NCBI RefSeq assembly: GCF_022009635.1
Contig: NZ_CP091716.1
Span: 7,310,501-7,374,500 of the forward strand
Direction: 5' to 3'
Length of the DNA: 64,000 nucleotides
From: Variovorax paradoxus
GTDB lineage: Bacteria > Pseudomonadota > Gammaproteobacteria > Burkholderiales > Burkholderiaceae_C
How positions within the stretch are numbered: position 1 is the stretch's first letter; each line of letters opens with the position of its first letter. Shown in pieces: positions 1,714 to 15,633 of the stretch. Made by a program: the position numbers and the translations under genes. Below the pieces are notes generated by a model, which was not told where the DNA came from, searched no databases, and was given only the letters and a program-made list of their open reading frames with translations.

Positions 1714-3953
1714 GCTGGTGCTCCCGATCCAGCCCCGTCACTCGTCTCTGTCGGATGCCCACCGCCTTGCATGTTCCACAGGTGCGCATAGATGCCCTTG
1801 GGCCGGGCCAGCAGGCTCTCGTGGGTGCCTCCTTCGACAATCTTTCCCTTGTCCATCACGATGATGCGGTTGGCGTGCCGCACGGCGGAGAGGCGGTGGG
1901 CAATGATGAAGACGGTGCGCCCCCTGCAGATGTGCGCCATGTTGCGCTGCACGATGGCCTCGCTCTCGTAGTCCAGTGCGCTGGTGGCCTCGTCGAAGAT
2001 CAGGACGCGCGGGTGGGTGAACAGGGCTCTGGCGATGGCGATGCGCTGGCGCTGGCCTCCGGAAAGGCTGGCTCCCTGCTCGCCCACCATGGTGTCGTAG
2101 CCCTCGGGCAGCTCGCTGATGAATTCATGGGCGCCGGCCAGTTGGGCTGCATGAATGATGGCTTCGAGCGGTGCGGCCGGATCGACGATGGCGATGTTCT
2201 CGCGCACGCTGCGGTTGAAGAGGGTGTTCTCCTGCAAGACCACGCCCACTTGCATTCTCAGTTGTGCCGCGTCGATGAGGCTGATGTCGATGCCGTCGAC
2301 CAGCAAGCGTCCCTGCTCGGGGGCATACAGGCGCTGGATGAGCTTGGTCAGCGTGCTCTTGCCGGAGCCTGAGCGCCCGACGATGCCGATGACTTCGCCG
2401 GGGCGCACGTCCAGGCTGACGCCGTTGAGCACAGGTGCCGCTTCGGGGCGGTAGCGGAAGGTCAGGTTGTCCAGGGTTACGCGACCCTTGAGCGCTGGGA
2501 GCTGCGCAGCGGTGCTCGGCGGCACCTCGGTGCGGGTGTTGAGGATGTCCCCGAGCCGGGCCATGGAGATGCCGGTCTGCTGGAAGTCGGTCCACAGCTG
2601 GGCCATGCGCATGATGGGCTGCGACACGCGCTGGGCGAACATGTTGAAGGCGACGAACTGGCCGACCGTCAGGTCGTTGTTCATCACGAGGTGCGCGCCG
2701 TACCAGAGGGTGGCTGCGTTGACTAGTTTGCCGATAAGGTTGACGCCTTCGTTGGCCCAGCTCGCGAGGTTCTGGGTTCGGAAACTGGCGGAGATGTAGG
2801 CGGCCAGTTGGTTGTCCCAACGGCGCCCGAAGGCCGGTTCGAGCGCGGTGGCCTTGACGGTCTGGATGGCGCTGACGGTCTCCACCAGCATGGCCTGGTT
2901 CTCCGCGCCGCGCGCGAACTTCTCGTCCAGGCGGCTGCGCAGGATCGGCACCACCGCCAGGCTCAGGCCGAAGTACAGTGGCATGCTGGCCAGCACGATC
3001 AAGGTCAGGGGCACGCTGTAGAACAGCATGACGGCCACGAAGACGATGGAGAAGACGACGTCCAGCAGCACCGTCAGGGCATTGCCGGTCAGGAAGCTGC
3101 GGATGTTCTCCAACTCGCGCACGCGGGCAACGGAATCGCCGACGCGCCGGGCCTGGAAGTAGGCCAGGGGCAATTGCACGAGGTGGCGGAACAGCCGTGC
3201 GCCGAGTTCGACGTCGATGCGGTTCGTGGTGTGGCTGAAGACGTAGCTGCGCAAGCCGTTGAGTAATGACTCGAAGACAACAACGACCAGCAGGCCGATG
3301 ACGAGCACATCCAGCGTGGTCAGGCCGCGGTGCACGAGCACCTTGTCCATCACGACCTGGAAGAACAGCGGGCTGACCAGCGCGAACAGTTGCAGGATGA
3401 AGGAGATGAAGAGGACTTCACCGAGCAGCTTCCTGTGCTTGACGAGGCTGGGGATGAACCAGGAGAAGTCGAACTTGGCGAGGTCGCCTGCAAGGCTGGC
3501 GCGGCTGGTGATGAGGATGAGTTCGCCCGTCCAGTGTGCGGCGAAGACTTCCAGGGGTTCGATGACGGGGCGGCCGTTCGAGGAAGAGGGGTCTTGCAGC
3601 AGGACGCGTTGGGCATCGCACTGGGCAAGGATGACGAATCGTTCCTGGCCGGACTCGTCACGCAAAACTGCCAATGCGGGCAGCGGTGTCAGGGACAGGC
3701 GATCCAGCGTCGTGCGGGAGGACTTGGCCTTCAGGCCCAGATGCTTGGCTGCGCCCAGCAGCGTGGCGGTGTTGATGGGCTCGGAAGAGGCAAGGCCCAG
3801 TTGATGAGACAGCAGCGACGCATCGGCTGCAATCTGGTGGAAGCGTGCAATCGTGCACAGCGCGATGAGCGAAGGAGCCCCCGCGTCAGGTGCTTCTTGC
3901 GGGCGCGCGCGCTCCACCCCGTGCTGTTGCACGACTCCCTCCCCTATTCCCAT
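1710..3953 (-). CDS. Type I secretion ABC permease/ATPase, HlyB-like
   Basis: A 747-residue half-transporter that exports a protein with a C-terminal signal. It has an N-terminal C39-like domain (about 25-155), a six-helix ABC membrane domain (about 170-460) and a nucleotide-binding domain with Walker A GRSGSGKST near residue 525, the signature LSGGQRQR and Walker B VLIFDEATSALD. The Cys expected at the start of the C39 helix is absent (Pro in my hand alignment), as in HlyB, so it should not cleave a leader. The start is uncertain: ATG at 3953 has a weak ribosome site, while GTG at 3932 follows GGGGAGGGAG. No secreted substrate such as an RTX protein is visible; it may lie left of the window. 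Confidence 0.92.
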   Translation of the reverse strand: MGIGEGVVQQHGVERARPQEAPDAGAPSLIALCTIARFHQIAADASLLSHQLGLASSEPINTATLLGAAKHLGLKAKSSRTTLDRLSLTPLPALAVLRDESGQERFVILAQCDAQRVLLQDPSSSNGRPVIEPLEVFAAHWTGELILITSRASLAGDLAKFDFSWFIPSLVKHRKLLGEVLFISFILQLFALVSPLFFQVVMDKVLVHRGLTTLDVLVIGLLVVVVFESLLNGLRSYVFSHTTNRIDVELGARLFRHLVQLPLAYFQARRVGDSVARVRELENIRSFLTGNALTVLLDVVFSIVFVAVMLFYSVPLTLIVLASMPLYFGLSLAVVPILRSRLDEKFARGAENQAMLVETVSAIQTVKATALEPAFGRRWDNQLAAYISASFRTQNLASWANEGVNLIGKLVNAATLWYGAHLVMNNDLTVGQFVAFNMFAQRVSQPIMRMAQLWTDFQQTGISMARLGDILNTRTEVPPSTAAQLPALKGRVTLDNLTFRYRPEAAPVLNGVSLDVRPGEVIGIVGRSGSGKSTLTKLIQRLYAPEQGRLLVDGIDISLIDAAQLRMQVGVVLQENTLFNRSVRENIAIVDPAAPLEAIIHAAQLAGAHEFISELPEGYDTMVGEQGASLSGGQRQRIAIARALFTHPRVLIFDEATSALDYESEAIVQRNMAHICRGRTVFIIAHRLSAVRHANRIIVMDKGKIVEGGTHESLLARPKGIYAHLWNMQGGGHPTETSDGAGSGAPA

Positions 3954-4209: not shown

Positions 4210-5127
4210 CTACCCTCTCGCGTTAGCCATATGCTCACGCCGAAAACTGCGCGGCGTGCTCCCCACCCACTGCCGGAAGCGCCGATTGAAATACGCCTCG
4301 TCCGCGAACCCGCACTGGTGCGCGATGTCCCGCACCAGCAGCGACGTGGACGACAGCAATTCCTTCGCGCGCTCGATGCGCCGCTCGGTCACGAGGTCGG
4401 TGAAGGTGCGGTCGGTTTCCTTGCGCAGCAGGTTGGCGAGATAGTTGGGCGACAGGAACGCGGCCGCGGCGGCATCGGTGAGCGACAAGGGCTTGTCGAG
4501 GTTGTCGCGCACATAGCGCACCACGCGCTGCAACGCGTCGTGCTGCGAGGTCTTGCCGTTGTGCTGCAGCGAGAGCCGCATCAGCGCCTGCTCCTGCCGC
4601 ATGCAGGCCAGGGCGATGATCTGCTGCACGATGCCGCGCATGGCGATCTTGGCGCCGAAGCTGCGGCCCGCGTTCAGTGCATGCAACTCATCGAGCCAGC
4701 CGCGAACGCGCGCGAAGTCGGCCTCGTCGAAGGCGAAGTCGACGTACTCCTGGAACAGGAAGGGTGCAAGGTCGGGGTAGCGTGCGAGCGGCACGTCATC
4801 CAGGTCGAGCGCGTCGACGTCGAGTTCGGGCCACAGGAAGCGCTGGTCGAAGTTGACGATGCAGTACAGCGCCTCGGGCGGGTGCGGAATCACGTGCACC
4901 CGGTACGGCAGCACGAAGCTCAGGTGGCGCGGGCCGAAGGGACGCACCTCGCCGCCGATGGCTTGCTGAGAGTGCCCTTCGATGCCGATCTGGATCTGGA
5001 AGTACGCATGCCGGTGCGGCAGCGTGAGTTCGTTGCGCGCGCCCTGGAAGCGGATGTCGAAGTCGAGGTGGTCGGCACGCTCGTGCATGCCGTAGGTGCG
5101 GACGGACGTGGAATGAGAGGGGCGCAT
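4210..5127 (-). CDS. AraC-family transcriptional regulator
   Basis: A 305-residue protein with an N-terminal cupin-like ligand domain (His-rich start, LPHRHAYFQIQIG near 35-50) and a C-terminal double helix-turn-helix at about 200-300, including the conserved second-helix pattern DIAHQCGFADEAYFNRRFRQ and the closing G-x-x-P-R. It lies 85 bases downstream of the FAH-family hydrolase on the same strand, at the distal end of the leftward sulfur gene run, so it may control that run or the hydrolase. The effector cannot be read from sequence. The 256 bases between it and the secretion ATPase (3954-4209) hold an AT-rich stretch near 3970-3985, probably the promoter of the secretion operon, and no convincing gene. 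Confidence 0.9.
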   Translation of the reverse strand: MRPSHSTSVRTYGMHERADHLDFDIRFQGARNELTLPHRHAYFQIQIGIEGHSQQAIGGEVRPFGPRHLSFVLPYRVHVIPHPPEALYCIVNFDQRFLWPELDVDALDLDDVPLARYPDLAPFLFQEYVDFAFDEADFARVRGWLDELHALNAGRSFGAKIAMRGIVQQIIALACMRQEQALMRLSLQHNGKTSQHDALQRVVRYVRDNLDKPLSLTDAAAAAFLSPNYLANLLRKETDRTFTDLVTERRIERAKELLSSTSLLVRDIAHQCGFADEAYFNRRFRQWVGSTPRSFRREHMANARG

Positions 5128-5212
5128 CGGGACTGGCGTGGCGGCGGACTTCTGCCGCGAGGGTACTACGCCGGCCAGTTTGCGGCCCGATGCGCGGGCC
5201 GTCTTCAGGCGC

Positions 5213-5902
5213 TCAGACGACCACGACTTCCAGTGCGCCGACGCCCGCCACGGTGCCGCGCATGCGGTCGCCGCGCTGCACGGCCGCCACGCCGGCGGGG
5301 GTGCCGGTGAAGATCAGGTCGCCGGGCTGGAGGGTGAACAGGGTCGAGAGGTAGGCGATGGTGTCGGGCACGTTCCAGATCATGTCGCCCAGGTCGCCGA
5401 CCTGGCGTTGCGCGCCGTTGACTTCGAGGCGGATCTCGCCTGCCGCGGGGTGGCCTGCCTTGGCCACGGGCACCAGTTCGCCACAGGGGGCGGAGCCGTC
5501 GAAGGCCTTGCCGGTGTCCCAGGGGCGGCCCATTTTCTTGGCTTCGGACTGCAGGTCGCGGCGGGTCATGTCGAGGCCGACGGCGTAGCCGTACACGTGG
5601 GACAGGGCGTCGGAAGCAGCGATGTTCGAGCCGCCGGTCTTGAGCGCGACGACGAGCTCGATTTCGTGGTGCACATCGTTCGACAGCGTGGGATAGGCAA
5701 ACTCGCCGCCGTCCGCGACGATGGCATTGGCCGGCTTCATGAAGAAGAACGGGGGTTCGCGGTCGGGGTTGTGGCCCATCTCGCGGGCATGCTCGGAGTA
5801 GTTGCGGCCCACGCAGAAGATGCGGTTGACGGGAAAGCGCGCCGATTCGCCCTGGATGGGCAGGGAATGGACGGGTGCTGGGGAAATGGCATAGGAAGTC
5901 AT
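5213..5902 (-). CDS. Fumarylacetoacetate hydrolase family protein
   Basis: A 229-residue single-domain FAH-fold protein, the size of bacterial fumarylpyruvate or acylpyruvate hydrolases. Visible family features are the N-terminal IFCVGRNYSEHAREMG, the metal-binding acidic pair in HHEIELVVAL (about residues 80-90), GLDMTRRDLQ, and the C-terminal PGDLIFTGTPAGV. Such enzymes cleave C-C bonds of acylpyruvates or decarboxylate oxaloacetate, using Mg. It lies 100 bases downstream of the last sulfonate binding protein, in the same direction. Whether it handles the carbon skeleton released by the sulfur enzymes is an inference from position only. Confidence 0.9.
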   Translation of the reverse strand: MTSYAISPAPVHSLPIQGESARFPVNRIFCVGRNYSEHAREMGHNPDREPPFFFMKPANAIVADGGEFAYPTLSNDVHHEIELVVALKTGGSNIAASDALSHVYGYAVGLDMTRRDLQSEAKKMGRPWDTGKAFDGSAPCGELVPVAKAGHPAAGEIRLEVNGAQRQVGDLGDMIWNVPDTIAYLSTLFTLQPGDLIFTGTPAGVAAVQRGDRMRGTVAGVGALEVVVV

Positions 5903-6002
5903 GCGACGACTCTAGCCAGAGGCATCCCCTGTCCCAGGGACGGATCTACGCGAGTCTTGGACTCAGCTACGGTACTTGCGTCTCTCGCCGCGCGGCCGGC
6001 CC

Positions 6003-6983
6003 TCAGCCAGCCACGCCGAACGCGGTATCGAAAGTCCCTTTGACATCCAGCGGCTGCTTGATGAGCCCCACCTGCCGGTAAAAGTCCGCCGTCCCCTGCT
6101 GGTCCGAGATCACTTGCGCATCGATGGCCACCCACTTCTGCTGCCGCCGCTCGAACTGCAGCTTCGCCGCCTCGGGCGGTATGCCGATGATCCGTGCCAG
6201 CGCGGCCGAGTACGCGTCGACATTGCGGTACGACCACAGCTGTGCCTTCACCACGCGCTGCAGAAAGTCCTGCAGCACCGGACGCTTGGCCGCGATCGCG
6301 CTGTCGGTGGCCGCGAGGTAGCTCAGGCCCGGCAGCAGTCCGCGGCCGCTGACCAGCACCCGCGCATGATTGCTGACCTCGGCCAGCGCCGTATACGGCT
6401 CCCACGTGGCCCAGGCGTCGACCGAACCCTGCGTGAGCGCAAGCTTGGCGTCGGCGGGCGCAAGAAAGCGGATGTTCACGTCCTCCGGCTTCAGGCCGGC
6501 CGCGGTGATGGCCTTGAGCGTGACATAGTGGCCGATGGAACCACGGTTGGTGGCGACGCTCTTGCCCCTGAGATCGCCGGCCGCCTTCAGCGGCGAATCG
6601 GGCCGCACCAGCACCGCCGTGCCGTAGGAGTCGGAGCGGTTGGCGCCGATGGCCTTCACGCGCGTGCCGGCGGCCAACGCGAAGATCAGCGGTGCGTCGC
6701 CGATGGGGCCGGAGTCGACCGCGGCCGCGTTCAGCGCTTCGGCCAGCGGCGCGGCGGCCGGGAACTCCGACCACTGGATGTCGTAGCCGAGCCCCTCGAG
6801 CCCACCCGCCGCTTCGAGCAATGCGAGCAAGCCGCCCTTTTGGTCACCCGCCTTGAGCACCGGCCGGCCCTGTGCGGAAACAAGGGCGGGTGCTGCGGCG
6901 ATGGCGGCAGCCACCGACGCCCCCTGAACAAGAAACTGGCGGCGTGAACTGTGGACGGTCATGGCTGTGCGGTTGTTGCTCAT
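6003..6983 (-). CDS. Sulfonate/nitrate/taurine-type ABC substrate-binding protein
   Basis: A 326-residue periplasmic binding protein of the NitT/TauT (SsuA-like) family. The start at 6983 is chosen because its ATG overlaps the previous stop by 4 bases (ATGA). The N-terminus has a twin-arginine-like signal (SSRRQFLVQGA) and an AQG cleavage region. Family features are the repeated VLVRPDSPLKAAGDLRGK block, the NRGSIGHYVTLKA motif and QGSVDAWATWEPYTAL, a typical ligand-cleft segment. It is most like the proteins at 10022-11023 and 12375-13364 and less like its neighbour at 6980-7987. No ABC ATPase or permease is nearby. Confidence 0.9.
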   Translation of the reverse strand: MSNNRTAMTVHSSRRQFLVQGASVAAAIAAAPALVSAQGRPVLKAGDQKGGLLALLEAAGGLEGLGYDIQWSEFPAAAPLAEALNAAAVDSGPIGDAPLIFALAAGTRVKAIGANRSDSYGTAVLVRPDSPLKAAGDLRGKSVATNRGSIGHYVTLKAITAAGLKPEDVNIRFLAPADAKLALTQGSVDAWATWEPYTALAEVSNHARVLVSGRGLLPGLSYLAATDSAIAAKRPVLQDFLQRVVKAQLWSYRNVDAYSAALARIIGIPPEAAKLQFERRQQKWVAIDAQVISDQQGTADFYRQVGLIKQPLDVKGTFDTAFGVAG

Positions 6984-7987
6984 GCGAGCGGGTCGAAGGA
7001 AACATGGTCGGCAAAGCGCGCCGGGTCGGTGCTCTTCTTGAGCACGCCCACGCCTCGGAAGTCGCGCGCGTAGAACTCGACTTCGTCGCGCAGCGCGCGG
7101 CCCAGCGGATGGTGCTGGTGCGTGAGCGTTCCCAGCAGCGCGCGCAGGTCTTCCACCGCCACGTTGGGCGAATACTTGGCGAAAAGCCTGGCCGATTCGT
7201 TCGGGTTCTCGGCCACGTAGCTGGAAGCTTGCGCAATGGCGCGCACCAATGCGGCGACGGTGGCCTTGTCCTTGCGCACGAGCTCGCCGCGCGCGCCGAC
7301 GATGCAGCACACCTTGTCCTTGTATTCGCCCGAGAGATTGCTCGCCAACTCGACGTAGGCGCCCTGGTTGCGCTTCTCGATCAGGTAGACGTTGGGGTCG
7401 CCGTCGGCGATGGCCTGGATCTCGCCCTTCTTCACCGCCACGTCGAGCAGGTCGGCCGGGTACTGGCGCCAGGTGACGTCCTTGTCGGCGTCGATGCCGT
7501 TCTTCGCGAGCAGGATCGAAAAGAAGTTCTTGCCGGGGCTTGCGATGTCGGACACGCCGATCACCTTGCCCTTGAGACTCGCCAGGTCGCTGACGCCCGC
7601 GCTCTTCGCGCCCACCAGCCGCACGCAGCCGCCGTGCGAGCTGCCGACGATCTTCACGTCGAAGCCCGCCTCGAGCGGCTTGAGCCAGCGGTGGATCATG
7701 CCGACGGCCGCGTCGGCCTTTGCCGTGGCCAACGACTCCAGCAGCTGGTCGGTCGAGCCGGTGTAGTTGATGAGCTCGACCTGCAGGCCGTTGCGCTCGA
7801 AGTAGCCGCGCTCCTGCGCCACCACCACGGGCGACAGGCAGAACGCGGCGGCATTCCATGCGAAGGTGAGCTTGCGCGAGGACTGCGAGAAGGCCTGCGA
7901 GGCGATCAGGCCGCCGGAGGCAAGCACAGCGGCCGCGCCGCCGGCGCGCAGCACGCCGCGGCGGGAAAGGCTTGCGTTCGTCTTCAC
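6980..7987 (-). CDS. NitT/TauT-family ABC substrate-binding protein
   Basis: A 335-residue binding protein. The GTG start at 7987 overlaps the stop of the aldolase gene (GTGA), which fixes the start against the longer open frame. The signal is twin-arginine-like (LSRRGVLRAGG) with a hydrophobic core and SQAFSQ cleavage region. The body has the NMT1/SsuA-like pattern FAWNAAAFCLSPVVVAQERG, then GLQVELINYTGSTDQLLESL and SPGKNFFSILLAKNGID. It belongs to a different branch from the other three binding proteins in the cluster, so it may bind a different ligand or serve a different transporter. Translation is probably coupled to both neighbours. Confidence 0.9.
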   Translation of the reverse strand: MKTNASLSRRGVLRAGGAAAVLASGGLIASQAFSQSSRKLTFAWNAAAFCLSPVVVAQERGYFERNGLQVELINYTGSTDQLLESLATAKADAAVGMIHRWLKPLEAGFDVKIVGSSHGGCVRLVGAKSAGVSDLASLKGKVIGVSDIASPGKNFFSILLAKNGIDADKDVTWRQYPADLLDVAVKKGEIQAIADGDPNVYLIEKRNQGAYVELASNLSGEYKDKVCCIVGARGELVRKDKATVAALVRAIAQASSYVAENPNESARLFAKYSPNVAVEDLRALLGTLTHQHHPLGRALRDEVEFYARDFRGVGVLKKSTDPARFADHVSFDPLA

Positions 7988-8808
7988 AGCAGCAATTCGG
8001 GTTCGGCTTCGACCAGGCCCTCGTAGAGGCTGTCGAAGGAATGGATCGCGCCTTCGGAGCCGCCGATCTGGCCGTGCGTGTGGCGCGCGGTGGCCGCGTC
8101 GATGGGCTGCGGCTTGCCGGCGGCCTCGGCCAGCAGCTGCGTGTGGCAGGCGTTGTCCAGCGCGATGTACCACCACGCGGCCGCCTCCACCGTCGGGCCG
8201 GCCGTCAGGATGCCGTGGTTCTTGAGGATGGCGCCCTTCCTGTCGCCCAGCGCATGCGCGATGCGGTCGCCCTCGCTGCTGTCGACCACCATGCCGGTGA
8301 AATCGTCGAACAGCGCCACGTCGTCGTGGAACACGCAACTGTCCTGCGTGAGGGTGTCGAGCTTGCGGCCCAGCGTGGACCAGGCCTTGCCGTAGGTCGA
8401 ATGCGTGTGGGCCGCCGCGACGATCTTCGGGTTGTGCTCATGGATGGCTGCGTGGATGGCGAAGGCGGCCTTGTTGAGCGGCCGGTCGCCGATGACGGTC
8501 TCGCCCTTCGAATTGACGAGCAGCAAGTCGGACACCTTGATGCGCGAGAAATGAATGCCGAGCGGGTTGACCCAGAAGTGATCGGTCAGCTCGGGGTCGC
8601 GCGCCGTGATGTGGCCGGCCAGACCCTGCGCGAAACCGAACCGCGCGAACAGGCGAAAGGCACCGGCCAGGCGCTCCTGCCGATGGCGGCGCTCGGCCTC
8701 CACGGTGGGGCGCGGGGGGACGGGGTCGAACCAGTACTTCTGCTGCGGGTTCGGGTTCAGCTTCAGCGGCTGGGGGGCGTTGCGGTCGATGGAGAGAACG
8801 GCGCTCAT
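7984..8808 (-). CDS. Class II aldolase/adducin family protein
   Basis: A 274-residue class II aldolase fold protein. Typical features are GHITARDPELTDHFWVNPLGIHF near residues 60-80, the metal-binding AAHTHSTYGKAWS (His-x-His), a second metal His region near VLDNACHTQLLAEA, and KNHGILTAGPTVEAAAW. Family members use a divalent metal for retro-aldol cleavage or decarboxylation of small hydroxy acids; the substrate is unknown here. It follows the FMN monooxygenase by 60 bases containing a short palindrome, and its stop overlaps the GTG of the next binding protein. It could process the aldehyde or hydroxy acid left after desulfonation, which is an inference from position. Confidence 0.88.
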   Translation of the reverse strand: MSAVLSIDRNAPQPLKLNPNPQQKYWFDPVPPRPTVEAERRHRQERLAGAFRLFARFGFAQGLAGHITARDPELTDHFWVNPLGIHFSRIKVSDLLLVNSKGETVIGDRPLNKAAFAIHAAIHEHNPKIVAAAHTHSTYGKAWSTLGRKLDTLTQDSCVFHDDVALFDDFTGMVVDSSEGDRIAHALGDRKGAILKNHGILTAGPTVEAAAWWYIALDNACHTQLLAEAAGKPQPIDAATARHTHGQIGGSEGAIHSFDSLYEGLVEAEPELLL

Positions 8809-8834
8809 GGGGTGTCCTATGTGTTCGGTTTTTG

Positions 8835-8859
8835 CTCCCTCCCCCGGAAGGGGAGGGAG
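8835..8859. repeat. Short REP-like palindrome
   Basis: A 10-base inverted repeat (CTCCCTCCCC and GGGGAGGGAG) around a 5-base loop CGGAA sits in the 60-base gap between the monooxygenase and aldolase genes. The flank on the plus strand is TTTTTG before the stem. It has no T-run on the minus-strand side, so it is not a canonical terminator for the leftward operon. Elements of this general form are common as dispersed palindromes in Comamonadaceae (recollection, not checked). It could tune mRNA stability between the two genes. Confidence 0.5.
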
Positions 8860-8868
8860 AAAGTCAGG

Positions 8869-9990
8869 TCAGGCCGCCTTGCGGATGGAGGCTGCGCGTT
8901 GCGCAACGAGTTCGCGCGTGCGCGGAATCAACTCGCGCCCATAGTCCAGCGCATCTTCCAGCGGATCGAAGCCGCGGATCAGGAAGGTCGTCACGCCCAG
9001 GTCGTAGTAGTCCAGCAGCGCATCGGCGACCTGCTCGGGTGTGCCGACCAGTGCAGTGCTGTTCGAGCGCCCGCCGATCTCCTGCGCCACGGCGGTCCAC
9101 AACCGCTTGTCGAGCCGCGAGCCCTTCTCTGCCGCGGCCAGCAACCGCTTCGCGCCTTCGCTCTGCTGCGGGCCGCCGCGGTTGTAGCCCTGCACCACGC
9201 GCAGCCGTTTGGTCTCGGCGAGGATGTTCTCCGCGCGCGCCCATGCGGCTTCTTCGGTCTGCGCCAGGATCGGACGGAACGACACCGAGAAGCGCACGCT
9301 GCGCCCATGTTTGGCTGCCTCGGCGCGCACCCGCGTGGTCAGCTCGCGCGCCTGGTCGAGCGACTCGCCCCACAGCGCGTAGACGTCGGCGTATTTGCCG
9401 GCGACCGGAATCGCTGCTTGCGAAGCCCCGCCGAAATACACCGGCACGTGCGGCTTGCCATTGCGCGTCTGCAGCGGCTTGACTTCGGAGAACGCGTTCT
9501 GGAAGCGGTAGTGCGCGCCTTCATGGTCAAAGGGGCGCTCGGCCGTCCATACCTTGTGCAGCACGTCGAGATATTCGTCGGTGCGGGCGTAGCGCTGATC
9601 GTGGTCCAGCCAGTCGCCGTCGCGGCGCTGTTCCTCGTCGGAGCCGCCGGAGATGTAGTGCACGGCGAGCCGGCCACCGCTGAACTGGTCGAGCGAGGCG
9701 AACTGCCGCGCCGCCAGCGTGGGCGCGACGAAGCCGGGCCGGTGCGCGAGCATGAAGTGGATGCGCTCGGTCACCGAGGCGGCATGGGCCACCGTGAGCG
9801 TGGCGTCGGGGCCGGTCGAATGGTGCGGCACCAGCACGCGGTCGAAGCCGGCCGTCTCGTGCGCCTGCGCGAAGGCGCGCACGTAGTCGCGGTCGAGCGC
9901 AGGACCCTTGGCCGCGTGGATTTCCGAGACCTTCTGGCCCTGGATCATGCCGATGAATTCGACGGCACCGTCTTGCTGTGGCTGGCTCAT
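8869..9990 (-). CDS. LLM-class FMN-dependent monooxygenase, SsuD-like
   Basis: A 373-residue luciferase-like flavoprotein, close in length to alkanesulfonate monooxygenase SsuD (about 380). The start at 9990 is chosen over 10029 because AAGGAGA lies 6 bases upstream of the ATG. Features include VPHHSTGPDATLTVAHAAS, FMLAHRPGFVAPTLAARQ, the SsuD-type segment GGRLAVHYISGGSDEEQRRD, and VYFGGASQAAIPVAGKYADV. The expected reaction is FMNH2- and O2-dependent cleavage of a C-S bond to release sulfite and an aldehyde. It lies 31 bases downstream of a sulfonate-type binding protein. No flavin reductase is nearby, so reduced FMN must come from elsewhere. Confidence 0.9.
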   Translation of the reverse strand: MSQPQQDGAVEFIGMIQGQKVSEIHAAKGPALDRDYVRAFAQAHETAGFDRVLVPHHSTGPDATLTVAHAASVTERIHFMLAHRPGFVAPTLAARQFASLDQFSGGRLAVHYISGGSDEEQRRDGDWLDHDQRYARTDEYLDVLHKVWTAERPFDHEGAHYRFQNAFSEVKPLQTRNGKPHVPVYFGGASQAAIPVAGKYADVYALWGESLDQARELTTRVRAEAAKHGRSVRFSVSFRPILAQTEEAAWARAENILAETKRLRVVQGYNRGGPQQSEGAKRLLAAAEKGSRLDKRLWTAVAQEIGGRSNSTALVGTPEQVADALLDYYDLGVTTFLIRGFDPLEDALDYGRELIPRTRELVAQRAASIRKAA

Positions 9991-10021
9991 GTTGTTCTCC
10001 TTGTCGGGGGTGGAAGGGAAA

Positions 10022-11023
10022 TCAGGCAACGGGCAGGCGCAGCACGCTCTCGAAGCTGCGGTCCCACAGGGGTCTGACGTCGGCCGGGCCGTCGAGCACG
10101 CCGATCTTCAGGAAGGTGTCGGCCACGTCCTGGTGGCTGCGCACCACGGCGTCGCTGACGGGGCCCAGGCTGTAGTCGCTGCTGCGGCCGTTGAAGAGCT
10201 CGACGATGTCGCCCACCGGCACGCGGGTCTCGGCCGACTGCGCACGGGCATACGTCAGGAAGTTGCCGTTGCTCCACGCAAAGGCGCGCTGCAGACGCTG
10301 CAGCAGGTCGGCCAGCGCGGCACGGCGCGGTGCGTCGTCCAGCGCGCGCGGATTGGCGTAGATGGGGAAGTTGCCCGACAGGTAGCCCACGCCGGTCTTG
10401 ATGACGCGCGCGCCGTACTGGATGCGCGCCAGCTGGCCGTTGTAGCCGTAGATGGCCCAGGCATCGAGATCGCCGCGCGCGAAGGCCGACAGACCGTCCG
10501 ACGGCGTGAGGCTCACGGCCTGGATGTCGCTGAACGACAGGCCCGCCTCGGCCAGTTGCTTGGCCAGGTAGTAGTGCGAAGTGGTGGCGCGCACATAGCC
10601 CACGCGCTTGCCCTTGAAGTCGGCGATGGTGCGGATCGGCGCGTCCTTGCGGGCCAGCGTGGCCTGGTTGTTCAGGTCTTCATGCGTTACCGCCACCAGT
10701 CTCACGCTGGATTTCTGCCGCGCCGCGAACACCGGCGGGATCTCGCTGCCCGAGCCCAGGTCGAGCGCGTCGCCATTGATGGCCTCGATATGCAGCACGC
10801 CGTTGTTGAGTTCGCGCCAGTCGATCTTGTAGGGCGTGTTGGCCTGGCCGGATGCCGTCAGCAGCGGCCGCCAGAGTCCCTTGTAGGTACCCACGCGCAA
10901 CGTGACGCCCGAAAGGTCGGTCGCCGGTGCAGCGGCCCGGGTCCAGCCGGCGGAAGCCGCCGCGCCCAGTGCGGCGGCGGCTTGCAGCAGACGACGCCGG
11001 TCCAACGGGAAATCTGGTTTCAT
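10022..11023 (-). CDS. Sulfonate-type ABC substrate-binding protein
   Basis: A 333-residue NitT/TauT-family periplasmic binding protein, the first gene of the leftward run. The ATG at 11023 is followed by a short Arg-rich signal (LDRRRLLQAAAALGAAASAG, twin-arginine-like). The body carries TLRVGTYKGLWRPLLTASGQ, LNNGVLHIEAINGDALDLGS, TIADFKGKRVGYVRATTSHY and GDLDAWAIYGYNGQLA, typical of SsuA/TauA relatives. It faces an acyl-CoA-dehydrogenase-like gene across a 110-base divergent promoter that contains an inverted repeat. It and the monooxygenase downstream probably form the import-and-cleave core of the operon, but no membrane component of a transporter is present. Confidence 0.9.
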   Translation of the reverse strand: MKPDFPLDRRRLLQAAAALGAAASAGWTRAAAPATDLSGVTLRVGTYKGLWRPLLTASGQANTPYKIDWRELNNGVLHIEAINGDALDLGSGSEIPPVFAARQKSSVRLVAVTHEDLNNQATLARKDAPIRTIADFKGKRVGYVRATTSHYYLAKQLAEAGLSFSDIQAVSLTPSDGLSAFARGDLDAWAIYGYNGQLARIQYGARVIKTGVGYLSGNFPIYANPRALDDAPRRAALADLLQRLQRAFAWSNGNFLTYARAQSAETRVPVGDIVELFNGRSSDYSLGPVSDAVVRSHQDVADTFLKIGVLDGPADVRPLWDRSFESVLRLPVA

Positions 11024-11065
11024 GGACCGGACCGTACCCAGAGGCGGCATGGAAGCGAACGCAGA

Positions 11066-11099
11066 AAAACGAGTTTGCATATGCGGGATGCATCGTTTT
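11066..11099. promoter_or_regulatory. Inverted repeat in divergent sulfur promoter
   Basis: Between the two divergent sulfur operons (starts at 11023 and 11134) there is a dyad with arms AAAACGA (11066-11072) and TCGTTTT (11093-11099). Nested inside are TGCAT (11076-11080) and ATGCA (11088-11092). It is the only AT-richer stretch in the gap. It could be an operator read by a regulator common to both directions, for example a CysB/Cbl-type or the AraC protein at 4210-5127. It could also form a hairpin in the short rightward leader. Binding is not shown by sequence alone. Confidence 0.45.
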
Positions 11100-11133
11100 C
11101 CGGCGCCGGCCGGCCGGCTACCGTGCGGAAACC

Positions 11134-12378
11134 ATGAGTGCACTCCCTTTGCGACGCCCCTCGGCCACGGCCGAAGAACACCCATCCGCAGCCCAGGGCG
11201 TCCCGGCCGCGCCCGCGCTGCTGGCGCAGTTGTCGGCGCGTTTCGCGGCCACCGCCGCCGACCACGACCACAGCGGCGCCTTCCCGCGCGAGAACTTCGA
11301 CGCGCTGCAGGCGCACGGGCTCATCGGCCTGGTGGCGCCCGCCGCGTACGGCGGCGGCGGGGCCACGCTGGCCACGGCGCGGCGCGTGATCGCGGCCGTG
11401 GCACGCGGGGAGCCGGCCACCGCGCTGATCCTCACCATGACCTATCTGCAGCACCACGCGCTGACACGCGGCGACAGCCGCTGGCCGGCGCACCTGCGCG
11501 AACGCGTGACGCGCGACGCGGTGGAGCGCGGCGCGCTGATCAACGCGCTGCGCGTGGAACCCGCGCTGGGCTCGCCCGCGCGCGGCGGCCTTCCGGCCAC
11601 TGTGGCTCGCCGCGACGCCTCCGGCTGGAAAATCGACGGCCACAAGCTCTACACGACCGGCATCGAAGGCCTCTCGTGGCTCGCAGTCTGGGCACGCACC
11701 GACGAAGCCACACCGCGCACTGGCGTGTTCCTGGTGCCGCGGCATGCCCCCGGCGTGCGCGTGATCGCCAGTTGGGACCATCTGGGCCTGCGGGCCTCGG
11801 GCAGCCACGAGGTGGTGTTCGAGAACGTCGCCATCGGCGCCGACCACGCGGTCGACCTGCGCGCGCCCGCCGACTGGGCGCCCGACGCCGGCAGCCAGAC
11901 CGACATCGACGCCCACGCCACGCAGCAGGCGTGGATGACGGTGCTGCTGGGCAGCCTCTACGACGCGGTGGCCGCGTCCGCACGCGACTGGCTGGTGGGC
12001 TTCCTGAACCAGCGCGCGCCCGGCAGCCTCGGCGCGCCGCTGGCGAGCCTGCCGCGCGTGCATGAGCACGTCGGCGAAATCGAAGCACTGCTGCGCACCA
12101 ACCGCGTGCTGCTCGACGACGCCACCGCCGCCGTGGACGGCGGCCATGCGCAACCCGCCATCGACAGCGGCCTGTTGAAGTACACGGTCACTGGCAACGC
12201 GGTTCGCGCGGTCGAACTGGCGCTGCAACTCAGCGGCAACCACGGGCTCACGCGGCAGAACCCGCTGGAGCGGCACTACCGCGACGTGCTGTGCAGCCGC
12301 ATTCATACGCCGCAGAACGACGCGATCCTGGTCGCCGCGGGCAGGCGCGCGCTGCTGCCATCGGGAGGCGCCGCATGA
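11134..12378 (+). CDS. Acyl-CoA dehydrogenase-like flavoprotein (SfnC/DszC type)
   Basis: A 414-residue protein with the acyl-CoA dehydrogenase fold. The ATG at 11134 is used; the longer open frame upstream covers the divergent promoter. Features include the N-terminal helical part with HGLIGLVAPAAYGGGGA, the flavin-domain strand KIDGHKLYTTGIEGLSWLAV, the DHLGLRASGSHEVVFENVAI segment and a C-terminal helical domain with SGNHGLTRQNPLERHYRD. The context of sulfur genes suggests a desulfurising flavin monooxygenase like SfnC/DszC rather than a fatty-acid enzyme. A 3-sulfinopropionyl-CoA desulfinase, also of this fold, is an alternative given the thiol dioxygenase two genes downstream. Its stop overlaps the next start by 4 bases. 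Confidence 0.85.
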   Translation: MSALPLRRPSATAEEHPSAAQGVPAAPALLAQLSARFAATAADHDHSGAFPRENFDALQAHGLIGLVAPAAYGGGGATLATARRVIAAVARGEPATALILTMTYLQHHALTRGDSRWPAHLRERVTRDAVERGALINALRVEPALGSPARGGLPATVARRDASGWKIDGHKLYTTGIEGLSWLAVWARTDEATPRTGVFLVPRHAPGVRVIASWDHLGLRASGSHEVVFENVAIGADHAVDLRAPADWAPDAGSQTDIDAHATQQAWMTVLLGSLYDAVAASARDWLVGFLNQRAPGSLGAPLASLPRVHEHVGEIEALLRTNRVLLDDATAAVDGGHAQPAIDSGLLKYTVTGNAVRAVELALQLSGNHGLTRQNPLERHYRDVLCSRIHTPQNDAILVAAGRRALLPSGGAA

Positions 12379-13364
12379 CTTCCCTGCTTTTCTCCAAGGC
12401 CTCCCGCCGCGACTGGCTGAAGCAAGGCACGGCGCTGTCGCTGGCCGCCGCCGGTTCGCTGCGTGCCTCCTTTGCCCAGGCGCAGCCGCAGACCACGCTG
12501 GTGCTCGGCGACCAGGCGGGCGGGCTGCGCTCGCTGTTCGAGGCTTCGCGCGCGCTCGAAGGCGCGCCGTTCGCCTACCGCTGGGCCAACTTCCAGGGCG
12601 CCGCTCCGTTGTTCGAAGCGCAGCGCGGCGCGGCGGTCGACACGGCCATGGCCGGCGACCTGCCGGTGCTGGCCGCCGCCGTCGGCAAGACGCCGCTGAA
12701 GATCGTCGCCACGCGCGTCGGCAAGGCCGATTCGCTGGGCATCGTGGTGCAGCCCGATTCGCCGCTGCGCAGCGTGACGGACCTGCGCGGCAAGACGGTG
12801 ATCGTGTCGTCCGCGCGCGGCAGCATCTCGCAATACCAGCTGTACGGCGCGCTCGAAGAGGCCGGCGTGAAGCGCGAAGAGGTGACGGTGAAGTTCGTGC
12901 TGCCCACCGACGCGGCCGCCGCCTTCGCGTCGAGGCAGATCGACGCCTGGGCCATCTTCAATCCGTACTACACCATCGCCGTGCAGCAAGGCGGGCGCAT
13001 CCTGCGCGACGGGCGCGGCATCAACACCGCGCTGGGCTTCATCACCGCGAGCGAGCATTCGCTGGCCGATCCGGCCCGGCGCGCGGCCATCGTTCAGTTT
13101 CTCGATCGGCTCGGCCGCGCGGGCGACTGGGCACTGGCCAACCCCGAAGCCTATGCGCAGTCGTACAGCCAGCTCACGCGGCTGCCGATCGAGGCCTCCC
13201 GCATCATCACCGCGCGGGCGTCGGTGGCGGGCCGGCCGGTGAGCGAGGCGGACATCGTCGCGTTGCAGGCCGTGGCCGACCGCTCGGCGCGCGACGGCAT
13301 CCTGCCCGCGCGGGTGGACGTGCGCGCGATCACCGACACGCAACTCTGGAAACGCGCCGCGTGA
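12375..13364 (+). CDS. Sulfonate-type ABC substrate-binding protein
   Basis: A 329-residue NitT/TauT-family binding protein. The start at 12375 overlaps the preceding stop (ATGA), which decides it over the longer frame. The signal is twin-arginine-like (ASRRDWLKQGT) with cleavage near AQAQ. The core has LVLGDQAGGLRSLFEASRAL, IVVQPDSPLRSVTDLRGKT, SSARGSISQYQLYGALEEAG and SRQIDAWAIFNPYYTIAV, closely parallel in order to the binding protein at 6003-6983. It sits between a flavoprotein and a thiol dioxygenase with overlapping ends on both sides, so it belongs firmly to this operon although no permease or ATPase does. Confidence 0.9.
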   Translation: MTSLLFSKASRRDWLKQGTALSLAAAGSLRASFAQAQPQTTLVLGDQAGGLRSLFEASRALEGAPFAYRWANFQGAAPLFEAQRGAAVDTAMAGDLPVLAAAVGKTPLKIVATRVGKADSLGIVVQPDSPLRSVTDLRGKTVIVSSARGSISQYQLYGALEEAGVKREEVTVKFVLPTDAAAAFASRQIDAWAIFNPYYTIAVQQGGRILRDGRGINTALGFITASEHSLADPARRAAIVQFLDRLGRAGDWALANPEAYAQSYSQLTRLPIEASRIITARASVAGRPVSEADIVALQAVADRSARDGILPARVDVRAITDTQLWKRAA

Positions 13365-13966
13365 TCGCGCCGCTTCGCGAATTCGTCGGCGCCTTCGGCC
13401 GGCTGCTCGACACCGCGCCCGACGAGCCCCGCATTCTTTCGGATGGCGGCGCGCTGCTGCGCACGCTGGTGGCACGGGACAACTGGCTGCCTGAGGCCTT
13501 CGCGCAGCCCGACCCGGCGCGCTACCAGCAGTTCCTGCTGCATGCGGACAGCACCGAGCGCTTCTCTGTTGTGAGCTTCGTGTGGGGGCCTGGGCAGGCC
13601 ACGCCGGTGCACGACCACACGGTGTGGGGGCTGATCGGCATGCTGCGCGGGGCCGAGTACAGCCAGGGCCATGCGCTCGATGCGCATGGGCATGCGCAGC
13701 CGTGGGGCGAGGCGGTGCGGCTCGACGCCGGCGACGTGGAAGCGGTGTCGCCCACCGTCGGCGACCTGCACCGCGTGCACAACGCGTACGCGGACCGGGT
13801 GTCAATCAGCATCCACGTCTACGGCGCCAACATCGGCGCCGTGCGGCGGCATACTTACACGGCGGAGGGCGGACGCAAGCCCTTCGTCTCCGGATACTCC
13901 AACGCGCTGTTGCCCAACCTGTGGGATCGCAGCGCCGAACTCAGACCTTCTCCGACCGCTGCATGA
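13361..13966 (+). CDS. Thiol dioxygenase, Gln-type (cysteine or 3-mercaptopropionate dioxygenase family)
   Basis: A 201-residue cupin; the GTG start overlaps the previous stop (GTGA). Iron ligands are visible as H84 and H86 (PVHDHTVWG) and H137 (DLHRVHNAY). The Ser-His-Tyr triad of this family is present as S150, H152 and Y154 (SIHVY). Where mammalian cysteine dioxygenase has the carboxylate-binding Arg60, this protein has Gln57 (RYQQFLLH), and where the Cys93 crosslink sits it has Gly90. That pattern is the one reported for 3-mercaptopropionate dioxygenases, known from Variovorax among others. So it should oxidise a thiol to a sulfinate, with 3-mercaptopropionate a better guess than cysteine. 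The residue alignment was done by eye. Confidence 0.88.
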   Translation: MIAPLREFVGAFGRLLDTAPDEPRILSDGGALLRTLVARDNWLPEAFAQPDPARYQQFLLHADSTERFSVVSFVWGPGQATPVHDHTVWGLIGMLRGAEYSQGHALDAHGHAQPWGEAVRLDAGDVEAVSPTVGDLHRVHNAYADRVSISIHVYGANIGAVRRHTYTAEGGRKPFVSGYSNALLPNLWDRSAELRPSPTAA

Positions 13967-15633
13967 CGACTGCTTTCTTTCCCTTCCTGTCTTTTGCCGC
14001 CGTGCGCGAGCGCCTGCTGGCCCGCGAAGAAACCGCGCTGCTCGACGTGCGCGAGGAAGACCCTTTCGCGCAGGAGCACCCGCTGTGGGCCGCGAACCTG
14101 CCGCTCTCGCGCATCGAGATCGAGGCATGGCGGCGCATTCCGCGGCGCGACACGCTGATCGTGCTGTACGGCGAACACGCCGGCACCGACCTCGCGCCGC
14201 TGGCCGCGAAGACGCTCGCGGCGCTGGGCTACACGCACGTGCATCTGCTCGAAGGCGGCCTCGAGGGCTGGCGCAAGGCAGGCGGCGAACTGTTCCGCGA
14301 CGTGAACGTGCCGAGCAAGTCGTTTGGCGAACTGGTCGAGCACGAGCGGCAGACGCCTTCGCTGTCGGCGCCCGAGGTGAAGGCGCTGATCGACGCCAAG
14401 GCCGACGTGGTGGTGCTCGACGCACGCCGCTTCGACGAATACCAGACGATGAGCATTCCGTCGGCCACCAGCGTGCCCGGCGCGGAACTGGTACTGCGGG
14501 TGCGCGAACTCGCGCCCGATCCGGCAACGCGGGTGATCGTGAATTGCGCGGGCCGCACGCGCAGCATCATCGGCACGCAGTCGCTGGTGAACGCGGGCAT
14601 TCCGAACCCGGTGGCCGCCCTGCGCAATGGCACGATCGGCTGGAAGCTGGCGGGGCAGGTGCTGGACCACGGTGCCGGCCGGCAAGCGCCTGCCGGGGTG
14701 TCCGACGCTCACCGCAAGCAGGCACGGGCCGATGCGCGCCGCGTGGCCGATGCAGCGGGCGTGCGGCGCATCGACCTTGCCGCGCTGTGGACGCTGGAGG
14801 AGCCGGGACGCACCGTGTACCGCTTCGACGTGCGCACGCCCGAGGAATACGCGGCGGGCCACGTGCCGGGCTTTGCGAGCGCACCTGGCGGCCAGTTGGT
14901 GCAGGAGACCGATCACCAGGTGCCCGTGCGCGGCGCGCGCATCGTGCTGGTGGACGACGACGGCGTGCGTGCATCGATGAGCGCTTCGTGGCTCGCACAG
15001 ATGGGATGGGAGGTCCATGTGCCGGACGCCGTGCCAGAGGCCGCTGCGTTCAGCGAAGCGGCCGCGCCCTCATCCGCCTATCCGCCCATCGCGGCCGCGG
15101 TGGCGGAGATCACGCCGCGCGAATTGGCGGCGCTGCAGCAGCAGCAGCCGTCATCCGGCATGGCGGTGATCGACGTGACCACGAGCGCCAACTATGTCAG
15201 GCGCCACATCCCGGGCGCGTGGTACGCCATCCGCGCGCAGCTGGCGCACGCGCTGGAGGCGGTCATTCCCGCATCGCGTCGCTACGTGCTGACCTGCGGC
15301 AGCAGCCTGCTCGCGCGCTACGCGGCGGCCGACCTTCGCGTGCTGCTCGATGCCCAAGGCAAGCGCGATGTCGAAGTGCTGGTGCTCGCAGGTGGCAACG
15401 CCGCCTGGTTTGCCGCAGGGCTCGAAGCCGAGAGCGGCGAGACGCGCCTGGCAACGCCGCGCACCGACCGCTACCGCCGCCCCTATGAAGGCACCGATGC
15501 GCCGGCGGAGGCGATGCAGGCCTATCTCGATTGGGAGTACGGCCTGGTGGCGCAGTTGGGGCGCGATGGAACCCATCATTTCGAGGTGTTGTCCAACACG
15601 GGTCATTCGAGCGAAAGCGGCCTGAAAGGATGA
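13963..15633 (+). CDS. Four-domain rhodanese-like sulfurtransferase
   Basis: A 556-residue protein made of four rhodanese domains, roughly 1-112, 133-232, 268-355 and 383-490. Domain 2 has the active-site Cys195 (VNCAGRTRS) and domain 4 has Cys445 (LTCGSSLLA). At the same place domain 1 reads LYGEHAG and domain 3 reads VDDDGVR, so both lack Cys and should be inactive. Active and inactive domains alternate as two tandem pairs. The enzyme would move sulfane sulfur or act on thiosulfate. Its ATG overlaps the dioxygenase stop (ATGA). No terminator is seen just after it; the 114 bases to the next gene include that gene's ribosome site. Confidence 0.9.
   Translation: MTTAFFPFLSFAAVRERLLAREETALLDVREEDPFAQEHPLWAANLPLSRIEIEAWRRIPRRDTLIVLYGEHAGTDLAPLAAKTLAALGYTHVHLLEGGLEGWRKAGGELFRDVNVPSKSFGELVEHERQTPSLSAPEVKALIDAKADVVVLDARRFDEYQTMSIPSATSVPGAELVLRVRELAPDPATRVIVNCAGRTRSIIGTQSLVNAGIPNPVAALRNGTIGWKLAGQVLDHGAGRQAPAGVSDAHRKQARADARRVADAAGVRRIDLAALWTLEEPGRTVYRFDVRTPEEYAAGHVPGFASAPGGQLVQETDHQVPVRGARIVLVDDDGVRASMSASWLAQMGWEVHVPDAVPEAAAFSEAAAPSSAYPPIAAAVAEITPRELAALQQQQPSSGMAVIDVTTSANYVRRHIPGAWYAIRAQLAHALEAVIPASRRYVLTCGSSLLARYAAADLRVLLDAQGKRDVEVLVLAGGNAAWFAAGLEAESGETRLATPRTDRYRRPYEGTDAPAEAMQAYLDWEYGLVAQLGRDGTHHFEVLSNTGHSSESGLKG

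Follow-up and report, generated by a model that had tools for sequence, protein, structure and literature searches.

How can a gene cluster that encodes four solute-binding proteins operate when no membrane transporter is encoded beside them? The question is raised by an organosulfur locus of Variovorax paradoxus, at positions 4210 to 15633 of the 64-kb stretch of DNA analysed here (the window; C1:7310501-7374500 of the 7.95-Mb host genome, G000). A sequence-only reading of this DNA had proposed either that one transporter encoded elsewhere takes cargo from several binding proteins (BPs), or that some of the four now act in sensing or in periplasmic chaperoning of substrates. Our comparison of related genomes suggests that at least one of them, BP2, now serves a pump encoded elsewhere. 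Overall, we consider it probable that the cluster has lost its local importer, that BP2 works in trans with a distant pump, and, more tentatively, that BP1, BP3 and BP4 work with the canonical SsuBC importer.

Four binding proteins and no importer beside them

The genes in question lie as follows (positions in the window; RR, twin-arginine motif).

6003..6983, minus strand: BP1, SsuA-family binding protein with RR signal (TIGR01728, 199 bits; 2x26, E 6e-40)
6980..7987, minus strand: BP2, binding protein of the apparently lost transporter, GTG start, RR signal (NMT1, E 1.8e-23)
6980..6983, minus strand: ATGA overlap of the BP2 stop and the BP1 start, where relatives hold permease, ATPase and cytochrome genes
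10022..11023, minus strand: BP3, SsuA-like binding protein with RR signal (2x26, E 2e-32)
12375..13364, plus strand: BP4, SsuA-like binding protein with RR signal (2x26, E 2e-26)

The four NitT/TauT-type binding proteins recognised in the sequence-only reading are intact genes at these places, and all exceed the cut-off of the Pfam family NMT1 (E 1.6e-9 to 1.8e-23). BP1, BP3 and BP4 match 2x26, the solved structure of a periplasmic protein that binds aliphatic sulfonates. Of the four, BP1 alone is counted as a member of the SsuA family, since it passes the TIGR01728 cut-off of 163.5 bits and the others do not (BP3 and BP4 reach 138 bits each and BP2 93). Pairwise comparison of BP2 with BP1, BP3 and BP4 gave no significant match, and BP2 contains four cysteines where the other three have none. 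All four carry an RR motif followed by a hydrophobic stretch, as judged by pattern and by eye only. The same signal is found on the canonical SsuA1 and SsuA2 and on BP2', a paralogue of BP2 in the same genome, so that the twin-arginine-like signals pointed out earlier are real yet not distinctive, and we rejected them as a special trait.

The earlier observation that no membrane transporter part is present also held. No permease domain (PF00528) was matched in the 64-kb window, the nearest match starting at least 59 kb from those of the BPs, and no importer ATPase resembling SsuB or the pB described below was matched in its first 19-21 kb (gene-by-gene annotation covered the first 21 kb). The ABC gene at 1710-3953 encodes a fused exporter (C39, ABC_membrane, ABC_tran) adjoining an HlyD protein and is not an importer part.

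Genome-wide, PF09084 was found at 35 places and PF00528 at 132. An SsuC-type permease lies within 3.5 kb of 20 of the 35 NMT1 places; among the 25 that reach at least 38 bits, 19 have such a neighbour and six do not, four of these six being BP1 to BP4. The other two are NMT1/SsuA-type genes at G000:C1:4241459-4242304 (L082) and C1:7641315-7641959 (L087), the former adjoining, by eye, an amino-acid-type permease and an FAD oxidoreductase. Seen from the permease side, an NMT1/SsuA-type match, in one case a weak one of 36.7 bits, lies within 2.5 kb of 23 of the 24 best of 28 SsuC-type matches (four weaker ones omitted); the 24th, at 3566412, belongs by eye to a ProU-type system. The nine weakest of the 36 SsuA-type matches, at 30.8 bits or less, were left out of this proximity count. 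An orphan SsuC-type permease was thus sought in the window's genome and not found among these 24 matches.

The importer block in relatives and its apparent loss

We compared the best 80 of 401 loci from a scan of genome contigs based on the SsuD-like FMN monooxygenase of the cluster (LLM); loci are numbered L and genomes G. A permease (pC) is matched in 55 of them, seven have BP2 and no pC, and 18 have neither, several of the loci being cut by contig ends. In most pC-bearing loci BP2 is followed by pC. The complete order of BP2, pC, ATPase (pB), c-type cytochrome (cyt; PF13442) and BP1 occurs in 37 of the 80, Ralstonia included, and in all seven loci with BP2 and no pC, BP1 comes directly after BP2. 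The pC set is present in Variovorax, Pseudorhodoferax, Xenophilus, Pseudacidovorax, Ralstonia and Cupriavidus, the Cupriavidus loci being mostly BP2-pC-pB-cyt without BP1. The cytochrome follows pB in 50 of the 55 pC loci; four loci end earlier and one, L067, holds a remnant. BP2 and pC score far under the cut-offs of the SsuA family and SaoX, and of SsuC, TauC and SaoP, respectively. The comparison of cluster content that had been advised shows pC in 55 of 80 loci and the block absent from the window's own clade.

That clade was delimited by a tree of LLM, flavoenzyme (ACAD) and aldolase DNA with 78 rows, in which the window falls in a 14-row clade with a support of 99 (G074 is not in the tree; G054 and G099 are, outside the state counts). 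Local pC is present in none of its 13 assessable genomes (G099 is cut), and all ten members that retain BP2 have the identical BP2-ATGA-BP1 junction. The pC-pB-cyt block is absent from this clade, apparently through one shared loss. On the whole tree, local pC changes state at least ten times.

Several further features were seen in these loci. The cytochrome gene is exemplified by L010:15077-16237 and L121:7048-8208, behind the importer ATPase. In Cupriavidus pinatubonensis (L067) a 55-residue pC remnant stands after LLM with no BP2 match, apparently another pump loss under way. A BP3 match is absent from L061-L080 and a BP4 match occurs there only in L071, after BP1; to judge from this pattern, BP3 and BP4 seem to have been either added later or lost separately. 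Pseudorhodoferax L044 has BP2, a BP2'-type gene and a single pC-pB-cyt set in one row.

In the genomes searched, BP2 is kept only with a homologous pump

Among 101 congeneric genomes, in each of which at most 19-24 candidates were scored, LLM was found in 72 (E 1e-100), pC in 63 (E 1e-60), BP2-type proteins in 62 (E 1e-60), BP1 in 71 (E 1e-90) and canonical SsuC in 90 (E 1e-80). There is one pC per genome (two matches in G100 are one gene split over contigs) and up to three BP2-type genes. BP2 without pC occurs in none of the 101 genomes.

The 72 cluster genomes divide into 46 with local BP2 and local pC, 11 with local BP2 and one distant pC, and 13 with neither, among them the fragmented G099; G054 (contig end) and G074 (73% complete) are unclear. 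The 46 include G007, which has a further unlinked BP2', and G100, which also stood on our exclusion list and yet has local pC. Of the 26 cluster genomes that lack local pC, 23 were assessable once G054, G074 and G099 had been set aside: 11 have BP2 and a distant pC, 12 have neither and none is mixed (Fisher p 7e-7, ignoring kinship). Within the window clade the split is ten with both against three with neither (Fisher p 0.0035, kinship likewise ignored), BP2 having been lost separately in G038+G040 and in G080, where no distant pC was found either. With no local transporter left, and with BP2 retained, in the genomes searched, solely where some locus encodes a homologous one, these data support action in trans for BP2.

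In some genomes the distant pump stands alone. In G048, G020 and G091, the distant pC-pB-cyt set has no adjoining BP, SsuA or BP2' match. The importer without its own binding protein that the sequence-only reading advised looking for was not found among the 24 matches of the window's genome and is present in these three. In G048 and G020 the BP2 of the cluster is the sole BP2-type gene found in the genome, and pC comes straight after the LysR gene, which in the window's genome stands before BP2' (LysR domains were matched in L124). G048 is the nearest relative of the window in the tree; its cluster and its pump are on separate contigs, of 1.14 Mb and 5.87 Mb respectively. The same cluster layout, with BP2 directly before BP1, is found on a 1.24-Mb plasmid of Variovorax sp. 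PDNC026. In a plasmid collection, BP2-type proteins occur in 64 records and pC in 74, with equal record counts in nine of the ten BP2 genera, which does not by itself imply the same records; the exception is Variovorax, with two BP2 plasmid records and no entry among the best 20 of the 74 pC records.

The distant pump

The window's genome contains a single pC homologue, pC' (C1:3993009-3994007), which is 76% identical to pC of L010. It belongs to a row 3.3 Mb away, at C1:3.991-3.995 Mb, together with cyt' (69%), pB' (92%) and BP2'.

C1:3994073-3995059: BP2', paralogue, 70% identical to BP2 of the window

In a pC tree, from which the distant pump of G060 is missing, the distant copies group with the BP2-adjoining permeases of basal Variovorax and Pseudorhodoferax (support 99), and the sister-species permeases stand apart from them (support 98). 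The 13 distant pC copies include those of G018 and G035, two genomes without LLM, and that of G054, located at the end of a contig; a topology uniting all 13 in one clade was not rejected (p-AU 0.706). LLM of the sister species is 94-96% identical to that of the window, against 76% for the distant permease and L010; this difference and the basal grouping indicate that the distant pump is an older, separate lineage. A recent move of the pump from the window site was accordingly rejected. On the reading proposed below, BP2 would dock with pC'.

Near the distant pump, in both L121 (G000:C1:3984000-4002000) and L124, two genes exceed the cut-offs of TIGR04027 (FMN monooxygenase) and TIGR04030 (alkylhydroperoxidase-domain protein); L124, where TIGR04029 was applied too, also has a CMD-domain protein over that cut-off. 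These genes are perhaps the pathway fed by BP2'.

Candidate partners of BP1, BP3 and BP4

BP1 is retained in 11 of the 12 genomes without pC, and BP3 or BP4 in several of those. BP1 therefore needs a partner other than pC, and the persistence of all three without pC shows them to be independent of that transporter. The idea of one shared transporter elsewhere thus finds support for BP2, by comparative genomics, and not for the four proteins taken together. Canonical SsuC is present in 71 of 71 BP1 genomes against 19 of 30 others, is single-copy in 71 of the 72 cluster genomes, and lies within 9 kb of LLM in G059, G070 and G072 (L136, L135 and L137) and in G054, which form two sister pairs. This co-occurrence and adjacency make SsuBC (C1:4.277 Mb in the window's genome) the best candidate, and it may tentatively be taken as the partner of BP1, BP3 and BP4. 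The canonical ssu cluster (C1:4.276-4.282 Mb; named by eye) comprises SsuE, SsuA, SsuD, SsuC, a second SsuA and SsuB, and both SsuA genes exceed the SsuA-family cut-off.

Selection on the binding-protein genes

Decay into pseudogenes had been put forward as a way in which the question might dissolve, and we rejected it: no BP gene has an internal stop in 38-40 genomes each. The median pairwise ratio of nonsynonymous to synonymous rates (dN/dS, omega) in the pump-less clade (9-10 genomes) and in 26-28 pump genomes, from a set of 28 picked in clades with local pC, was 0.084 and 0.085 for BP1, 0.127 and 0.076 for BP2, 0.103 and 0.107 for BP3, and 0.131 and 0.114 for BP4. When the pairs were first screened by dS, the pump-less clade gave omega values of 0.088 for BP1 and 0.129 for BP4. 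The BP genes of the pump-less clade are under purifying selection.

Cluster layout and enzymes

The eleven genes form two divergent rows that meet at a 110-base intergenic stretch (11024-11133). The leftward row reads BP3, LLM, class II aldolase-family, BP2, BP1, FAA-hydrolase-family and AraC-type regulator genes; the rightward row reads ACAD, BP4, thiol dioxygenase and four-domain rhodanese. By their coordinates, adjoining genes on one strand meet at nine junctions, of which five are 4-base overlaps and four are gaps measuring 31-100 bases; with the divergent gap these make up the ten overlaps or short gaps counted earlier. Besides the BPs, the features are these.

4210..5127, minus strand: AraC-type regulator, 305 aa (HTH_18, E 2.7e-22)
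5213..5902, minus strand: FAA-hydrolase family protein, 229 aa (PF01557, E 4e-57)
7984..8808, minus strand: class II aldolase/adducin-family protein (PF00596, E 2.6e-46)
8869..9990, minus strand: LLM, SsuD-like FMN monooxygenase (PF00296, E 3e-73; 7jv3, E 1e-60)
11024..11133, no strand: divergent promoter region, its block 11062-11091 nearly invariant in 16 aligned genomes
11134..12378, plus strand: ACAD, acyl-CoA-dehydrogenase-fold flavoenzyme, SfnB/DszC-like (PF00441, E 2e-13; 5gj7, E 9e-50)
13361..13966, plus strand: thiol dioxygenase (CDO), 3-mercaptopropionate dioxygenase type (4qma, E 2e-90; 3uss, E 1e-82)
13963..15633, plus strand: protein with four rhodanese domains (PF00581, four stretches, E 8e-44)

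In a PDB search LLM is nearest to alkanesulfonate monooxygenase and ACAD to 5gj7/5z8t. The earlier label of SsuD-like suits LLM as a likeness and not as a family assignment, its scores of 233 and 232 bits against the SsuD equivalog models being far under the cut-offs of 510 and 518; similarly, ACAD reaches 107 bits against an SfnB cut-off of 431. The thiol dioxygenase was confirmed and its name can be refined: its matches to structures of 3-mercaptopropionate dioxygenases (E 1e-81 to 1e-90; 3uss/4tlf cover residues 4-194 of 201) place it in that type. As judged from these similarities, the enzyme set fits a route scavenging sulfur from sulfonates, sulfinates or thiols.

The promoter block of about 30 bases (11062-11091, minus strand), which contains GCATATGC, is nearly invariant in the 16 aligned genomes, chosen from 49, and is a likely operator. 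With up to three mismatches allowed, the genome contains a 23-base piece of this block at one place only.

The AraC and FAA-hydrolase genes are present in the window clade and in G007/G056, and not in the mapped flank of other genus loci. In the window clade the spacing between BP1 and the FAA-hydrolase gene ranges from about 90 to more than 4000 bases (L134, L141 and L204 versus L002), which suggests insertions at that point. An internal stop interrupts the thiol dioxygenase match in G055, and another the cytochrome match in G081. Next to the cluster (window 229-3953), an HlyD-type adaptor and the fused C39-ABC exporter resemble a type I secretion pair.

Discussion

We propose that the cluster would be an organosulfur-scavenging locus that formerly had a complete NitT/TauT-type importer consisting of BP2, pC, pB and the c-type cytochrome. 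The pC-pB-cyt block would have been lost in the ancestor of the window clade, leaving BP2 coupled directly to BP1. BP2 would be no relic: acting in trans, it would deliver cargo to the homologous permease and ATPase encoded at C1:3.991-3.995 Mb, where the window's genome additionally has BP2' as the pump's own binding protein. BP1, BP3 and BP4, of the SsuA kind, would load canonical SsuBC, which already has two SsuA genes. A broader version of this scheme is possible, and we hold it tentatively: the single-copy cytochrome-linked pump may be a hub of the genome, whose binding-protein genes multiply, become dispersed over chromosome and megaplasmids and come and go independently, with BP1, BP3 and BP4 in a parallel SsuBC pool. 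Were it true, uptake specificity would evolve through the exchange of binding proteins and not of transporters.

A number of points weigh against action of BP2 in trans. When kinship is corrected for, only four independent contrasts remain; all are concordant, and the resulting sign test (p 0.125) is the honest measure of statistical strength. Eight of the 11 split genomes, among them that of the window, have BP2' next to the distant pC, so that BP2 is not strictly needed there. BP2 is the only one of the four whose omega clearly shifts, being raised in the pump-less clade by a ratio of 1.67 (codon-bootstrap interval 1.10-2.42); this is compatible with partial relaxation, and may reflect mild decay, a division of the load with BP2' or adjustment to a different permease. 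The promoter block was sought at the distant pump and at the ssu locus and is shared with neither, and an operator common to cluster and pump was therefore rejected. Shinella has ten plasmid records with pC and is not named for BP2 at the same threshold; pC without BP2 is also seen in the L067 remnant and in G054, the only genus genome of this kind, where only 31 bases separate the start of pC from the end of the contig. BP2 stands directly before BP1 in locus L014 too, with no local pC; this locus was not matched to a searched genome and is in none of the genus counts. The link of BP1, BP3 and BP4 to SsuBC is circumstantial, consisting of co-occurrence and of adjacency in two sister pairs. 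Finally, permeases generally work with one specific binding protein and the pairing is usually highly specific, according to the part of PMC7731109 drawn on here.

The position of BP2' beside the distant pC and the raised omega would also be expected if BP2 were a decaying leftover, BP2' alone serving the distant pump and BP1, BP3 and BP4 working with SsuBC. We regard this as unlikely. G048 and G020 keep pC-pB-cyt with BP2 as the sole BP2-type gene found in them, omega of BP2 is still 0.127 with no stops in ten genomes, and BP2 is absent along with the unlinked pump from G038+G040 and from G080.

That BP1, BP3 and BP4 have become periplasmic sensors or carriers that no longer feed an ABC importer would agree with the distance of at least 59 kb to the permease matches and with their retention in genomes without a local pump. 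We judge it quite unlikely, for canonical SsuC is present in every BP1 genome, and no sensor kinase or other receptor is found among the eleven genes, whose sole regulator is AraC-type. Nothing in our results supports the sensing or chaperoning role that had been suggested. It is also improbable that all four BPs load one shared importer, pC'pB' or SsuBC, as a genome-wide hub. The single copy of pC alongside up to three BP2-type proteins, the near-constant single copy of canonical SsuC and the two SsuA-type genes of the ssu cluster speak for such sharing; the persistence of BP1 in pC-less genomes means that pC is not its sole partner, and BP2 has no significant similarity to the other three. 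Lastly, DszB has a binding-protein fold with a catalytic cysteine, and the neighbours weakly resemble DszA (LLM, 54 bits) and DszC (ACAD, 39 bits), but desulfinases of this kind acting with the two flavoenzymes are very improbable among the BPs, as no DszB structure is matched by any of them at E 0.001, BP1, BP3 and BP4 lack cysteine and all four carry export signals.

If BP2 does work in trans as we propose, the locus has wider meaning. The pairing of binding protein and permease is usually taken as fixed, as inferred from operons, while here the binding protein would follow a distant pump. Annotation based on operons may thus overlook transporter partners, and the genus offers a natural series for testing the compatibility of binding proteins and permeases from separate loci. 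Among open-licence papers, none was found by title or abstract on the cluster or on a split NitT/TauT importer of Variovorax.

Comparison with known systems

With SsuABC and other NitT/TauT importers, which are among the closest parallels, the locus shares SsuA-like binding proteins and an SsuD-like monooxygenase; in related loci the row also includes a pair of the SsuB/SsuC type. The locus differs in that the window is without permease and ATPase and that the lost set includes a c-type cytochrome gene. Its thiol dioxygenase clustered with a rhodanese-domain protein recalls the mercaptosuccinate dioxygenase-rhodanese loci, for which the section seen of PMC5373536 mentions V. paradoxus B4; the window dioxygenase is instead of the 3-mercaptopropionate type and matches the mercaptosuccinate enzyme 8vni at only E 6e-6.

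Binding proteins away from membrane parts have precedents. Orphan Bug/TctC proteins of Bordetella and relatives, in the excerpt used of PMC5812351, likewise are beta-proteobacterial binding proteins without nearby membrane parts. They belong to the TTT class and not to ABC systems; unlike them, 19 of the 25 clear NMT1 places here have a nearby SsuC-type permease. The multitask ATPases MsmX/MsmK, shared in trans as described in a portion of PMC7658222, also supply an importer part from another locus. There it is the ATPase that is shared, whereas here the permease, ATPase and cytochrome would all be remote, with the binding protein left in place.

That a single ABC motor can work with several unlinked binding proteins is, in principle, already known. 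HisQMP and, through reference 6 of PMC7731109, the Cbc (choline/betaine/carnitine) importer use one permease/ATPase for several binding proteins, some encoded elsewhere, as far as the cited part of that paper goes. The present case concerns another substrate class, and what is new is that the linked, split and lost states of a NitT/TauT-type importer stand side by side in one genus.

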